Under the pieces are notes generated by a model. It saw nothing but the letters and a program-made list of their open reading frames with translations, was not told the origin of the DNA and ran no database searches. The translations under genes were made by a program, and so were the position numbers. From Candidatus Gastranaerophilales bacterium (GTDB taxonomy: Bacteria; Cyanobacteriota; Vampirovibrionia; Gastranaerophilales; Gastranaerophilaceae), in assembly GCA_944325625.1 (NCBI GenBank), contig CALVAP010000004.1:186001-250000 (forward strand): 64,000 bases of DNA, written 5' to 3'. Shown piece by piece: positions 5,887-49,010 of the stretch (the stretch's first letter is position 1; every line of letters starts with the position of its first letter).

Positions 5887-6010
5887 TTCTCACTACCTTT
5901 TTCTTAAGCCGTTCGTAAAAATTATAACAGATTAATATGATACAACCTACCAATTTAATTTTTCTTAAAAAGGGGGAATTATATAAATAATGTTAGATGG
6001 AGGAGTACCA

Positions 6011-6577
6011 ATGCCAGCCAAAAATAAATCTATTGTGAATTTAAAAAGTTCGGAGAAAGTTGCACTTTTCCTTGAAAGAAATAATCTACATAAAAAAGAC
6101 TTTGCAGAAATGATAGGAGTAACTTTGTCCTATGTTTATAACCTAATAGATAATGCAATTCCGTTTTCAACCCGCTCAACTACAATCGAACGTATTGCCA
6201 CAGTTATGGATGTTGAACCAGAAGAATTCGATGAATACAAGATACCTCAAGAACCAATTTTAATAGACGATTCCGTTGAATTTTTGAGAGAAAAACAGCA
6301 CGAAAAAAATCTCTCTACTGTTCAGTTCTTAAAGGCTTTTCCACGCAAAAAACGATTAGAAATCGTCGATATACTAAGAGGTGCAAGCCCAATTCCGCTT
6401 GATTGGAAAGAATTGACTTTAATTGCTCAGGTTTTAGATATAAGAAACGAAGATATATACCCCTACTGGGAAGCTCGGCTTAGAAACCTTATGCAAGCAG
6501 CAGGCGTAAATATGCAATCAAATGCAGGCTTGATAAATACAATGTTCAGCTGCGCAAGAGAATATATCGAAAAATAA
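6011..6577 (+). CDS. XRE-family helix-turn-helix transcriptional regulator
   Basis: The N-terminal third (about residues 10-60) is a Cro/C1-type HTH: KKDFAEMIGVTLSYVYNLID, followed by a TIERIATVMDVEPEEF helix. A second HTH-like segment (RKKRLEIVDILRG and ELTLIAQVLDI) around residues 105-145 suggests a duplicated or dimerisation domain. The start at 6011 has GGAGGAG 6 nt upstream; the in-frame ATG at 5990 has no comparable site. It is followed by its own terminator and lies just upstream of two prepilin genes, but nothing in the sequence proves that it regulates them. Confidence 0.85.
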   Translation: MPAKNKSIVNLKSSEKVALFLERNNLHKKDFAEMIGVTLSYVYNLIDNAIPFSTRSTTIERIATVMDVEPEEFDEYKIPQEPILIDDSVEFLREKQHEKNLSTVQFLKAFPRKKRLEIVDILRGASPIPLDWKELTLIAQVLDIRNEDIYPYWEARLRNLMQAAGVNMQSNAGLINTMFSCAREYIEK

Positions 6578-6807: not shown

Positions 6808-6836
6808 TTGCAATTTATTCCATAATTTTGTAAAAT
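6808..6836 (+). promoter_or_regulatory. Promoter of prepilin copy 1
   Basis: TTGCAA (6808-6813) and TAAAAT (6831-6836) are separated by exactly 17 bp. An identical hexamer pair and spacer lies at the other two family members. Predicted transcription starts near 6843, giving a leader of about 37 nt that contains AGGAGG before the ATG at 6880. Confidence 0.75.
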
Positions 6837-6939
6837 CATATATGTTGAATATGTACATAATTATAGGAGGCAATATTTTATGAATTTTGACAGTTATATT
6901 ATTAAAAATGTCGAAATCGCACAAACTGTGCCGCTAAGC
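6808..6939 (+). repeat. 132-bp prepilin leader cassette, copy 1
   Basis: This block spans the promoter, the 5' leader, the AGGAGG site and the first 20 codons. It recurs with identical length at 7771-7902 and 33773-33904. Copy 1 differs from copy 3 at only three positions by eye and from copy 2 at about nine. Inside the coding part, changes are synonymous or Ile/Val. Each copy ends directly at, or one codon before, a cytosine tract. Confidence 0.9.
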
Positions 6940-7679
6940 TGCCCCCCCCCCCTTTCGCAAAGTCACCTTCTAATAAGGTTTTGAGGGGGTTTAGGCGTCA
7001 CACTAATCGTGCTTTTACCCTGGCTGAAACTCTTATCACATTAACCATTATCGGTGTCATAGCTGCTATGACTATCCCTACCCTTGTTTCTAAGTACCAA
7101 AAACATTCTTATGTCACAGGGCTTAAAAAAGCTTATTCCACCCTATCTAACATAATGCCTCTTGCAATGCGTGATGATGAGGTATGGGAGTATTATGACA
7201 GCGGAAGCATTGATTGGTATGAGAGTGGACCCAAAATTATAAACAAATACATGAAAGTTGTTAAAACTTGTGAAGACCAAAACCGAAAAGATTGTGTTGA
7301 GGTGGATGATTACGGAAGGCCAATACTGGGTTGGGGTGATCCAATTTATGTAACTGCTGATGGCATGACTTGGGGATATCACTATGGTCATTCAGTGGAT
7401 ATAAATGGCAAAAAAGGTCCTAATGAGTGGGGTAGAGATATCTTTACGTTTTACATAGCAGAATCTAACCGAAACGGAGTAGCTCAAGGTACGGTTATAC
7501 CCTACGGCTCAAAATTACAAGCCAAGTACGAGGGTTCTGCTGCCTACTACTGGAACAATAACCCGAGTTCACCTAGCTGTACCACTGAGATTGTTAAACA
7601 ATATGGAAAAGACATTGGTTGGAACGGTACAGTAAAATGCGCCGGTCGAGTACTTGAAGAAGGAGCGATGAACTACTAA
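6880..7679 (+). CDS. Prepilin-like protein, copy 1, interrupted by a C11 tract (apparently phase-OFF)
   Basis: AGGAGG precedes the ATG at 6880, which opens a leader MNFDSYIIKNVEIAQT. The frame enters a C11 run (6942-6952) and stops at 6982-6984. The prepilin body is open in another frame from within the tract to the stop at 7679 with no stop in between: AKSPSNK, then RAFTLAETLITLTIIG (type IV prepilin signal with Glu at +5), then a globular domain with the family blocks KVVKTC, YVTADGMTW, GPNEWGRDIF and a C-terminal CAGRVLEEGAMNY. A tract of 9 or 12 C would fuse leader and body (about 266 residues). A TTG at 6981 is the only internal start before the signal. Function is presumably a surface pilus or pseudopilus subunit. 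Confidence 0.85.
6942..6952 (+). repeat. C11 homopolymer tract in prepilin copy 1
   Basis: Eleven consecutive C lie inside codons 21-25, long enough for slipped-strand mispairing. Gain of one C or loss of two joins the upstream and downstream frames. Confidence 0.9.
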
Positions 7680-7770: not shown

Positions 7771-7799
7771 TTGCAATTTATTCCATAATTTTGTAAAAT
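7771..7799 (+). promoter_or_regulatory. Promoter of prepilin copy 2
   Basis: TTGCAA (7771-7776), 17 bp, TAAAAT (7794-7799): identical hexamers and spacer to copies 1 and 3. Confidence 0.75.
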
Positions 7800-7902
7800 C
7801 GTGTATGGCGAATATGTACATAATTATAGGAGGCAATATTTTATGAATTTTGACAGCTACATAGTCAAAAATGTCGAAATCGCACAAACTGTGCCGCTAA
7901 GC
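7771..7902 (+). repeat. 132-bp prepilin leader cassette, copy 2
   Basis: This is the same 132-bp layout as at 6808-6939 and 33773-33904. It is the most divergent copy, mainly between the -10 box and the ribosome site and at third codon positions of the leader. Its coding part still gives MNFDSYIVKNVEIAQT, so the peptide is conserved while the DNA has drifted. Confidence 0.88.
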
Positions 7903-8626
7903 TACCCCCCCCCCCGCCCCCCAGAAGTTAGCTTTTAATAAGGGTTTTGGGCTTTTTAGGCGTTGTAAAAAACTCGCTTTTACCTTAGCTGAAACTCTTA
8001 TCACACTTACTATTATCGGCGTTATTGCTGCTATGACTATTCCTACTCTTGTTTCTAAGTACCAAAAACATTCTTATGTTACCGGACTTAAAAAAGCTTA
8101 TTCTAATCTTTCTAATGCAATGGCTCTTGCCATGCGTGATGATGAGGTTTTGGAATATTATTCTGATGGGCGTATTGATTGGAGTAACAGTTTTTCAGGA
8201 ATTGTAAATAAATATATGAAAGTTGTTAAAACTTGTGATAGTAGTAATTATTCAGAATGTGTTGAGGTGGATGAAAATGGAGAACCAATACAAGGGAACA
8301 TTTCAGGTGATATATTTGTAACTGCTGATGGTATGACTTGGGGGGGATATAACATAACTGTTGACATAAATGGTAAAAAAGGACCCAATAGGTGGGGAAG
8401 AGATATCTTTATATTTGAGATAGCTGACTCCAACAGAAACGGAGTAGCTCAAGGTACGGTTATCCCTGTAGGCTCAAGATTATATGCTAAATATGTACAT
8501 AATGCTGATGAAATATGGGATAATTACTGCACCACTGAGATTGTTAATAGAGACGGAAGAAATATTTATGGTGGTGCTAAATATTGCACTGGTCGGGTAT
8601 TAGAAGAAGGTGCCATGAATTACTAA
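7843..8626 (+). CDS. Prepilin-like protein, copy 2, interrupted by a C11-G-C6 tract (apparently phase-OFF)
   Basis: The ATG at 7843 follows AGGAGG and encodes the conserved leader, then Pro codons from the C tract, and stops at 7936-7938. The body frame is open from the tract through QKLAFNKGFGLFRR, the signal LAFTLAETLITLTIIG and a globular domain to 8626. Before the ATG at 8033, which lies inside the hydrophobic helix, this frame has no ATG, GTG or TTG, so an intact prepilin can be made only by reading through the tract. One C fewer (or two more) restores the fusion of about 261 residues. The middle region differs strongly from copies 1 and 3 while both ends are conserved. Confidence 0.85.
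7905..7922 (+). repeat. C11-G-C6 tract in prepilin copy 2
   Basis: The tract is a run of 11 C, one G and 6 more C. It encodes Pro residues around a single Arg or Ala depending on frame. Loss of one C in either run would bring the gene into frame. Confidence 0.9.
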
Positions 8627-8689: not shown

Positions 8690-9241
8690 TTACTGATAAA
8701 TATTAATAACCGTATCAAAGTCCTCGTCAGTTTCATCTGTTTGCTCTTCTTCCGATTCTTCACTTTCAACGTCATCAGCATAAATCGGATCTAAAAGCAG
8801 TCCTTGATTTTTTATGTATTGAAAAGCAAAAGCAGGAGTTTTAATTATATCTGCTATATCATCAGCATTTGGAGCAAAATTTATGTTAAAGCCCGATATA
8901 TAGACCTCATCTGAACCTGTACCTTTGTCTATATTTACATTCCCATATTGAGAATATATCTTGTCATCGCCTGCTCCTGCATTTATTTCTGTTCCCATTC
9001 CAACAGAAATTATAGAATCATCTCCATCTTGAGTGTCTATAACAACTCCACCGGCTATCGTAGTTACTGTATCATCTCCTGCTCCGGTTACTATCTTTGT
9101 TCCGTTTGCATAGTTTACAACCGTATCTGAACCATCACCGCCGGCATATACGTTTCCATGCCCGTTTCTATCACTGCTTTGGTTTACAAAGTACTCCTCC
9201 ATTGCAAGTGAATAGTTTACCATGTCCACTCTTGTTATCAT
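8690..9241 (-). CDS. Small RTX-type (calcium-binding nonapeptide repeat) protein
   Basis: This 183-residue protein has five RTX-like turns with Gly-x-Gly-Asp/Ser-Asp: GGDGSD (34-39), GAGDD (53-57), DGDD (72-75), GAGDD (89-93) and GTGSD (107-111). Such repeats form a Ca2+-filled beta-roll in proteins exported by type I secretion. The tail is very acidic (ESEESEEEQTDETDEDFD) and ends in hydrophobic residues, which resembles an RTX export signal, but no toxin or enzyme domain and no N-terminal signal peptide is present. GGAG 8 nt upstream supports the ATG at 9241. No type I secretion genes are adjacent. Much shorter than typical RTX toxins or adhesins. Confidence 0.75.
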   Translation of the reverse strand: MITRVDMVNYSLAMEEYFVNQSSDRNGHGNVYAGGDGSDTVVNYANGTKIVTGAGDDTVTTIAGGVVIDTQDGDDSIISVGMGTEINAGAGDDKIYSQYGNVNIDKGTGSDEVYISGFNINFAPNADDIADIIKTPAFAFQYIKNQGLLLDPIYADDVESEESEEEQTDETDEDFDTVINIYQ

Positions 9242-33772: not shown

Positions 33773-33801
33773 TTGCAATTTATTCCATAATTTTGTAAAA
33801 T
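33773..33801 (+). promoter_or_regulatory. Promoter of prepilin copy 3
   Basis: TTGCAA (33773-33778), 17 bp, TAAAAT (33796-33801), the same as the promoters of copies 1 and 2. Confidence 0.75.
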
Positions 33802-33904
33802 CATATATGTTGAATATGTACACAATTATAGGAGGCAATATTTTATGAATTTTGACAGCTATATTGTTAAAAATGTCGAAATCGCACAAACTGTGCCGCT
33901 AAGC
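33773..33904 (+). repeat. 132-bp prepilin leader cassette, copy 3
   Basis: This is the third instance of the promoter, ribosome-site and 20-codon leader block, about 26 kb from copies 1 and 2. It is nearly identical to copy 1, with one change in the untranslated part and two in the leader codons, one synonymous and one Ile to Val. Confidence 0.9.
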
Positions 33905-34631
33905 CCCCCTCCCCCAGAAGTTAGCTTCTAATAAGGGTTTTGGGCTTTTTAGACGTCACACTAATCGTGCTTTTACCTTGGCTGAAACTCTTATCACTTT
34001 AACCATTATTGGAGTCATAGCTGCTATGACTATCCCCACTCTTGTTTCTAAGTACCAAAAACATTCTTATGTCACCGGACTTAAAAAAGCTTATTCTACT
34101 CTTTCTAATGTCATGGCTCTTGCTATGCACGATGATGAGGTGTTGGAGTATTTTAGCGCTGGAAGCATTGATTTGTATAATAGTTGGCCAAAGATTGTAA
34201 AAAAATACATGAAAGTTGTTAAAACTTGTGAATATCCCAACCTCGGAGATTGTGTTGAGGTGGACGATAACGGACACTCAATACAAGGTGACAACGATAC
34301 AATTTATGTAACTGCTGATGGCATGACTTGGTCATCCAGTGGATTTGATATCAACGGAAAAAAGGGACCTAATCAATGGGGTAGAGATATCTTTGCATTT
34401 TATATAGCAAACGCCGATCGAAATGGAGTAGCTCAGGGCACTGTTATACCTTGGGGCTCAAAATTACAAGCCAAGTACGAGGGTTCTGATACCTACTACT
34501 GGAATAATAACCCGAATTCACCACTCTGTACCACTGAGATTGTTAAACAATACGGAAAAGACAACTACTATTGGGCCCAGGCAAAAAGTTGCGCAGGTCG
34601 AGTGCTTGAAGAAGGCGCGATGAACTACTAA
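33845..34631 (+). CDS. Prepilin-like protein, copy 3, interrupted by a C6-T-C5 tract (apparently phase-OFF)
   Basis: The ATG at 33845 follows AGGAGG and encodes MNFDSYIVKNVEIAQTVPLS, then prolines, and stops at 33929-33931. The body frame is open from the tract through PQKLASNKGFGLFRR and the prepilin signal RAFTLAETLITLTIIG to 34631. Its first start-like codon is the TTG at 33978, already inside the signal. One C fewer or two more would join them (about 262 residues). Much of the 3' half is nearly identical to copy 1 (GSKLQAKYEGSDTYYWNNNP region), suggesting recent duplication or gene conversion; the middle differs. The interrupted tract should slip less than C11, so this copy may be more stably OFF. 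Confidence 0.85.
33904..33915 (+). repeat. C6-T-C5 tract in prepilin copy 3
   Basis: A twelve-base pyrimidine tract interrupted by one T lies at the same place as the longer tracts of copies 1 and 2. It lies in Pro codons and marks the leader/body frame switch. Confidence 0.88.
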
Positions 34632-48254: not shown

Positions 48255-49010
48255 ATGAATATTGAAAACAACTTAAGCTCACACTTAAAAATAGCCAGAA
48301 CTCTTTCTCTAAGCTCCGCTCCTTTTATACATAAAAACTATATTAGGGCTTTAAGAGAATTAACAAATAAAAAAGCTTTTACCCTGGTGGAAACACTAAT
48401 TACTTTAGTTATTATAGGTGTCATCGCCGCAATGACTATCCCCACTTTGATTTCTAAATACCACGAACAAGAAACAGTCACAAAGCTCAAAAAAGCTCAA
48501 TCTATTCTCGCTAACGCTATATCTATGCAAAAAGCGAAGGGAGACGAGTTCGAAAGCCATACTTCATACGGCTTTTCGGCTGATACACTCACAAACAACC
48601 TCAAAGGACTTAATTGTTATACATCCCCCAATCTGGATATTTGTAGCGAGTTTGGATCACGGTCTATCGTCCCAGATGGAGGTATGTTGTTAGATGATGG
48701 GATTGCAGTGGGGAATCATAACCTTGGTAACGAACACATATGTGTAGCTTTTGAGAAAAAAAGCAGTTACAAAACCTATTTTGATGATAATCCATACAGT
48801 TATTGTTTTTGGGTAAGTGACGATTACACACTCATTCCTTTTGGCGCAGAAAGCAATGTGAAATTACAGGACAATTCAATCGCTCCCTCATTGACACAGG
48901 AAGAAACTTGTCCACACGAACCAGTAGGAAATAACTTCAGCGGATGTACATACTGGACTCTTAGAACAGGCAAAGTTACCAAAAAAGCCGGAGAATGGTT
49001 CGACGATTAA
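48255..49010 (+). CDS. Prepilin-like protein with long leader, no homopolymer tract
   Basis: ATG at 48255 follows a G-rich ribosome site (AAGGGGGG, 5 nt). A leader of about 45 residues (MNIENNLSSHLKIARTLSLS and more) precedes the prepilin signal KAFTLVETLITLVIIGVIAAM. The leader has the same layout as the three tract-bearing genes and weak similarity (KIARTLSLS against EIAQTVPLS), but its frame is continuous. The globular domain of about 190 residues has several Cys (NLDICSEF, CVAFEKK, CFWVSDD) and the motif YTLIPFG. It is probably a constitutively translated relative. The frame extends back to a GTG at 48189 without a ribosome site. Confidence 0.85.
   Translation: MNIENNLSSHLKIARTLSLSSAPFIHKNYIRALRELTNKKAFTLVETLITLVIIGVIAAMTIPTLISKYHEQETVTKLKKAQSILANAISMQKAKGDEFESHTSYGFSADTLTNNLKGLNCYTSPNLDICSEFGSRSIVPDGGMLLDDGIAVGNHNLGNEHICVAFEKKSSYKTYFDDNPYSYCFWVSDDYTLIPFGAESNVKLQDNSIAPSLTQEETCPHEPVGNNFSGCTYWTLRTGKVTKKAGEWFDD

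Follow-up and report, generated by a model that had tools for sequence, protein, structure and literature searches.

Split prepilin genes in the window

The window, as the whole stretch of 64,000 nucleotides is called here, carries on its forward strand three copies of a gene in which a short leader and a prepilin-like body stand in different frames on the two sides of a C tract. In copy 1, a promoter-like TTGCAA-N17-TAAAAT, assigned by consensus match only, is found at 6808-6836 and a Shine-Dalgarno sequence, AGGAGG, at 6865-6870. The leader ORF as assembled (6880-6984) starts with ATG at 6880, ends with the stop at 6982-6984 and consists of 20 codons, MNFDSYIIKNVEIAQTVPLS, followed by CPPP and a short out-of-frame tail. 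The C11 tract occupies 6942-6952. Beyond it the prepilin body (6953-7679) has a basic prefix and then, at 7011, the motif A-FTLAETLITLTIIG, with 222 codons up to the stop. The Shine-Dalgarno sequence, the leader, the tract and the out-of-frame body had been described in the earlier note, and each of them was found in place. When the sequence was read directly, the body was open to 7679 in a frame that the leader does not enter. Copy 1 is OFF as assembled, and the gain of one C or the loss of two joins leader and body into one frame, the ON state. A TTG at 6981 in the body frame, chosen as start by the ORF finder, has no Shine-Dalgarno sequence. A Cro/C1-type helix-turn-helix protein is encoded immediately upstream of copy 1 (5990-6577, forward strand) and could be a regulator.

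Copy 2 has the same promoter-like sequence at 7771-7799 (consensus match) and a leader ORF that as assembled covers 7843-7938. Its C11 tract (7905-7915) is followed by a G and C6 (7917-7922), the gene is OFF, and the body extends over 7923-8626 with the motif at 7976. Just past this copy, on the reverse strand, lies a gene (8690-9241) for a 183-residue protein with GAGDD/GDGSD-like repeats; it has an RTX-like look and no Pfam match. A third copy in the window (33845-34631) is an addition to what the earlier note had found. Its promoter-like sequence, again by consensus match, is at 33773-33801, the leader ORF as assembled at 33845-33931 and the body at 33916-34631, with the motif at 33969. Here the tract is interrupted, C6 T C5 (33904-33915), and the gene is OFF; such a tract is probably slow to switch, or locked. 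A tract-free prepilin gene on the same strand (48255-49010), in which a 40-residue leader is in frame, served as the constitutive comparator.

The tracts are far from what base composition would give. In the window, which has 36% GC, C runs of at least 8 gave 8 overlapping matches against 0.22 expected from dinucleotide shuffles. None of 100 shuffles reached 8 such matches, and all the observed ones lie in copy 1 or copy 2.

The nature of the body was assessed from profiles and structure. TIGR02532 scored 21.3, 17.2 and 21.6 bits for copies 1, 2 and 3 (cut-off 16.3), and PF07963 scored 24 bits for copy 1 (cut-off 21.2). In the AlphaFold model of copy 1 (pLDDT 90.1), residues 3-52 form an N-terminal helix, and the head is alpha/beta. 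With Foldseek, run against PDB alone, there was no useful match for the body model; the structural matches listed by a second aligner were all type IV pilins, at low Z scores of 2.8-4.3 (4.3 for PAK pilin). The LPXTG sortase motif is absent from all three window bodies, and one Peptidase_A24 prepilin peptidase in the genome scored over cut-off (G000:C4:119187). The profile matches and the peptidase indicate that the body is a type IV prepilin-like protein; the fold agrees with this but is not decisive. Going by the family, the residues encoded by the tract (PPP or GGG) would lie upstream of the prepilin-peptidase site, in the part that is removed, so the tract could vary without harming the mature pilin.

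Tract genes in the genome and among relatives

The window's genome (G000; 1.70 Mb in 17 contigs, 99.7% complete) contains 16 C or G runs of at least 9. The DNA around every run was read, and 14 of the 16 lie between a short leader led by a Shine-Dalgarno sequence and a prepilin body. The remaining two (C4:178889 and C16:36641) have no adjoining prepilin, and no clear ORF was seen through either (L004, 2990-2999; L011, 3042-3050). All 14 tract genes are out of frame as assembled. Under random thirds and independence, 0/14 ON would be expected in 0.3% of cases, a figure that overstates independence, ten of the copies being paralogues with related flanks. The leader MNFDSYIVKNVEIAQTVPLS and the promoter-like TTGCAA-N17-TAAAAT are common to 10 of the 14, and a conserved stretch of 134 nt, with the promoter-like site inside it, is present in 13 copies. 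The leaders of the other four genes (L003, L005, L006 and L007) are unrelated; their tracts are G11, G11, C13 and C12 respectively, and the leader of L005 starts with GTG. Thus, the tract arrangement originated, or was spread, on more than one occasion. The earlier note had proposed a comparison with related genomes. The tract lengths proved not to be fixed: near-identical paralogues of this one genome, with flanks 80-90% identical, have tracts of 9, 11, 12 and 13, and 12 and 13 occur next to a near-identical flank.

The survey of relatives covered assembled genomes, one per species. Pattern scans of 383 genomes from the window's family found a tract with a prepilin in 41, and a reversed control pattern gave no match in these. 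The association recurs in independent assemblies of at least nine genera, and in a class-wide draw the matches fell within the family, bar one outside. The named records with this architecture are MAGs of Candidatus Gastranaerophilales or Melainabacteria and Fusobacterium sp. CAG:439. Records of the FR900xxx series that carry the latter label (L203, L206, L213 and others) cluster with Gastranaerophilales and appear to be misnamed. Matches of the genome-wide scan in high-GC bacteria were set aside as chance, most of them being without an open prepilin body, and none of 12 matches in viral contigs had the architecture. In genus g17 (G068, G119) the reversed control pattern gave up to 18 matches, which points to some other C-run element in that genus. 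Beyond what the earlier note had described, the system is thus genome-wide and lineage-wide, and the share of genes that are OFF as assembled is far above two-thirds.

Among 140 tract genes scored, a set that includes related copies and a few leaders picked by a simple start-plus-Shine-Dalgarno score, 10 were ON (7%) and 130 OFF; one base more was needed in 105 and two in 25. These calls rest on assembled homopolymer length, which may err at single loci but not so consistently across independent assemblies. Lengths were 9-14 both family-wide and in the window's genus, where the genes scored comprised 7 and 7 OFF at the two offsets and 2 ON. Genus g7 (the CAG:439 group) had n=10 with one base needed in 82 of about 103 genes, and genus g51 had n=9 with one base needed in 10 of 12. 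The one-base-short offset of g7 is common to C and G tracts and to all three codon registers. In G169, a g7 genome with some 75 tracts (an estimate: about 311 overlapping 7-mers were counted, and a 10-base run yields four), nearly all runs of at least 7 among those listed are exactly 10 long, and nearly all are one base short. A prepilin follows every sampled run of at least 9 in this genome except a G10 in L319, which has a short frame only. Ascertainment was checked with runs of at least 7: in G169 a single run of 8, away from prepilins, was found among those listed, and the g7 loci when rescanned gave lengths of 9-12 only.

Two pairs of orthologues were compared, the second of them telling for how the offset is kept. 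L121 and L183, from two close species and 99.4% identical, both have a tract of 10. L190 (C10) and L305 (C9), 96% identical, differ by a 23-base deletion past the tract together with one C fewer; the deletion alone would have turned the gene ON, and its pairing with the loss of one C kept the one-base-short offset. In some MAGs a contig stops in a C run of 40-52 beside a prepilin (L099, 1-48; L109, 1-52; L176); a real tract is likely to lie there, its excessive length being an artefact of sequencing or assembly.

Leader and body as one gene

Selection was compared between reading frames. In 12 distinct leader sequences, the ATG frame has a pN/pS of 0.17 and no stops, whereas the two shifted frames contain 28 and 22 stops, at pN/pS values of 1.37 and 0.82. 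The leader is therefore translated, and its sequence matters. The bodies, at 63-88% amino-acid identity, have a pN/pS of 0.04 over the first 30 codons and 0.36-0.42 after them. They are under purifying selection although assembled OFF, and hence are not dead genes. The prefix between tract and motif is under weak selection (0.65 in frame against 0.98 and 0.84) and was not used as support.

Tract-free relatives connect the two parts. The paralogues L033 and L034 of the window's genome have the same leader, which reads without a tract straight into the body. The same-genus species G001 and G002 have many tract-free copies, in which a homologous leader (M-x-F-D-S-Y-I ... TVPL) continues in frame into the same body. 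Leader and body thus belong together. These sequences make it probable that the continuous tract-free gene came first and that the tract was acquired later, where leader and body meet. Contigs of G001 often begin inside tract-free pilin copies (e.g. L054, L057, L058, L070); near-identical pilin repeats break this assembly, and copy numbers are probably underestimated. Past the tract, an ATG, GTG or TTG in the body frame is present in 21 of the 130 OFF genes and has a Shine-Dalgarno sequence in one.

Probable slippage at the tract

We consider it probable that these genes form a dispersed repertoire of type IV prepilins, phase-variable by slipped-strand mispairing, with an OFF length as the modal tract length. 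The C or G run at the junction of leader and body would decide whether a ribosome continues into the pilin body. Mispairing of slipped strands at DNA replication would shift the run by about one base, and the gene would toggle. The mature pilin would be identical at any in-frame length, since PPP or GGG would be cut off. With an OFF length as the common one, most copies would be silent in most cells and few variants made at once. We infer in this scheme the change of length within a population, the making of pilin by ON cells and what the pilins bind.

As in contingency genes, gain or loss of one repeat unit alters the frame of an otherwise single gene, length varies among copies and genomes, and ON and OFF alleles both exist in the family. 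The proposal of the earlier note, an ON/OFF pilin contingency gene that is OFF here, draws support from these properties and from the tract-free in-frame relatives, switching itself being a prediction from sequence. A tract fixed everywhere, or an assembly error, had been named in that note as grounds against the proposal; neither holds, as tract length differs between near-identical paralogues and both states occur in the family. Counted against phase variation were the lack of an ON tract gene among the 14 of the window's genome, the tract of 10 shared by the close-species orthologues L121 and L183, and the length and offset in g7, which are tighter than free switching would leave them unless selection or a strong length equilibrium acted. 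Two causes, alone or together, could account for the excess of OFF genes: selection for one-in-many expression, and an equilibrium of slippage that lies one base away from ON. Missing mismatch repair was rejected as the source of instability: MutS, the one component checked, is present, which was likewise counted against phase variation, and mismatch repair is not obviously absent.

The nearly uniform offset of the CAG:439-type genus invites a different explanation there. Its C10 or G10, one base short in front of nearly the whole pilin repertoire, may be a genus-wide rule of recoding or gated expression, under which pilins would be made only via RNA or ribosome slippage or in rare N+1 DNA variants; we regard this as rather unlikely. 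Recoding in general, the main rival, would let either the ribosome (-1) or RNA polymerase (one extra base) slip on the run, and an out-of-frame gene would still yield pilin in a low and fixed proportion. The strong conservation of the offset in g7 and g51, its occurrence with C-type and G-type leaders and in all three codon registers, and the missing body-frame start codon in most OFF genes are what such a mechanism would give. However, no single programmed shift serves the window's genus, where the offsets are split evenly and two genes are in frame. Natural in-frame alleles exist (the 7% above), a heptamer site would not need a pure run as long as 10-13, and no stable pseudoknot-free RNA structure was found past the tract (mean z +0.23, n=60). 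Programmed ribosomal frameshifting is recognised by a constant offset across the family and a downstream stimulatory structure; the offset is nearly constant in g7 and g51 but not across the family, and no such structure was seen in the 60 genes. Recoding is therefore unlikely as the general explanation.

It is very unlikely that the body starts independently and that the leader serves as a regulatory (proline-stalling) upstream ORF of its own: the TTG at 6981 in copy 1 and an ATG near the motif in a few g7 G-type genes could serve as starts, but starts past the tract are as rare as given above, and leader and body are fused as one ORF in the tract-free relatives. Miscounted tracts or dead copies are a highly improbable account, for although homopolymers are error-prone in sequencing, a database G-tract length can differ from that of the population (PMC9187656) and a few MAG contigs terminate in C40-52, interrupted and long tracts alike are out of frame, the bodies are under strong purifying selection, and prepilins accompany the tracts in separately assembled genomes of at least nine genera.

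Slipped-strand phase variation, the reading preferred here, has its closest precedent in the G-tract pili of Bifidobacterium breve UCC2003. In its sortase-dependent pilus loci bbr_0113 and bbr_1889, leader and body ORFs are out of frame across G10/G11; at bbr_1889, G10, the annotated length, is OFF and present in 93.4% of cells, and slippage by one base joins the ORFs (PMC9187656). The dependence of these pili on replication slippage was shown experimentally, and ON cells were enriched in the mouse gut (PMC9187656). As here, the organism is a gut commensal, leader and body are split, and the sequenced length is OFF. The B. breve pilins carry a Sec signal and LPXTG and belong to two operons, whereas the present genes are of type IV prepilin type, number 14 in the genome and dozens in a sister genus, use C as well as G runs and belong to a distant phylum.

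In Neisseria, pilC has a poly-G run in its signal-peptide region, and the pilin PilE varies by recombination with silent copies. The neisserial opa genes have CTCTT repeats in the leader-coding region (PMC3960869). A repeat in a cleaved leader, frame switching by slipped strands and families of paralogues are common to opa, pilC and the genes described here, but the opa repeat is a pentamer, and PilC is not a pilin but an adhesin of the pilus tip. Campylobacter jejuni NCTC11168 has 29 poly-G/C loci with runs of at least 7 (PMC4965091). Like the present case, it combines an AT-rich genome with G/C runs about as long as those seen here, and the runs switch surface functions; its switched genes are of many kinds, whereas here nearly every run is at a prepilin and most genes are OFF as assembled.

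Animal guts commonly harbour Gastranaerophilales, a group related to cyanobacteria of which hardly any member has been cultured. The earlier note knew of no phase-variable pilin family in this lineage, and the literature searched contained no description of phase variation in Gastranaerophilales. The homopolymer contingency gene is a known kind. What is new, as far as that literature shows, is that type IV prepilins are the genes switched, that the window's genome has 14 of them and a sister genus dozens, that OFF is the default, and that the lineage is an uncultured one of the gut. Such split genes will probably be overlooked or cut short by gene callers. The same architecture usually stays at 9 in g51 and at 10 in g7, each one base short of ON, and so offers a clear natural test of how tract length is set. 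If the reading is true, these bacteria would possess a large and mostly silent repertoire of switchable pilins, and its bearing on population heterogeneity, adhesion and evasion of phages or immunity could be tested from existing metagenome reads.
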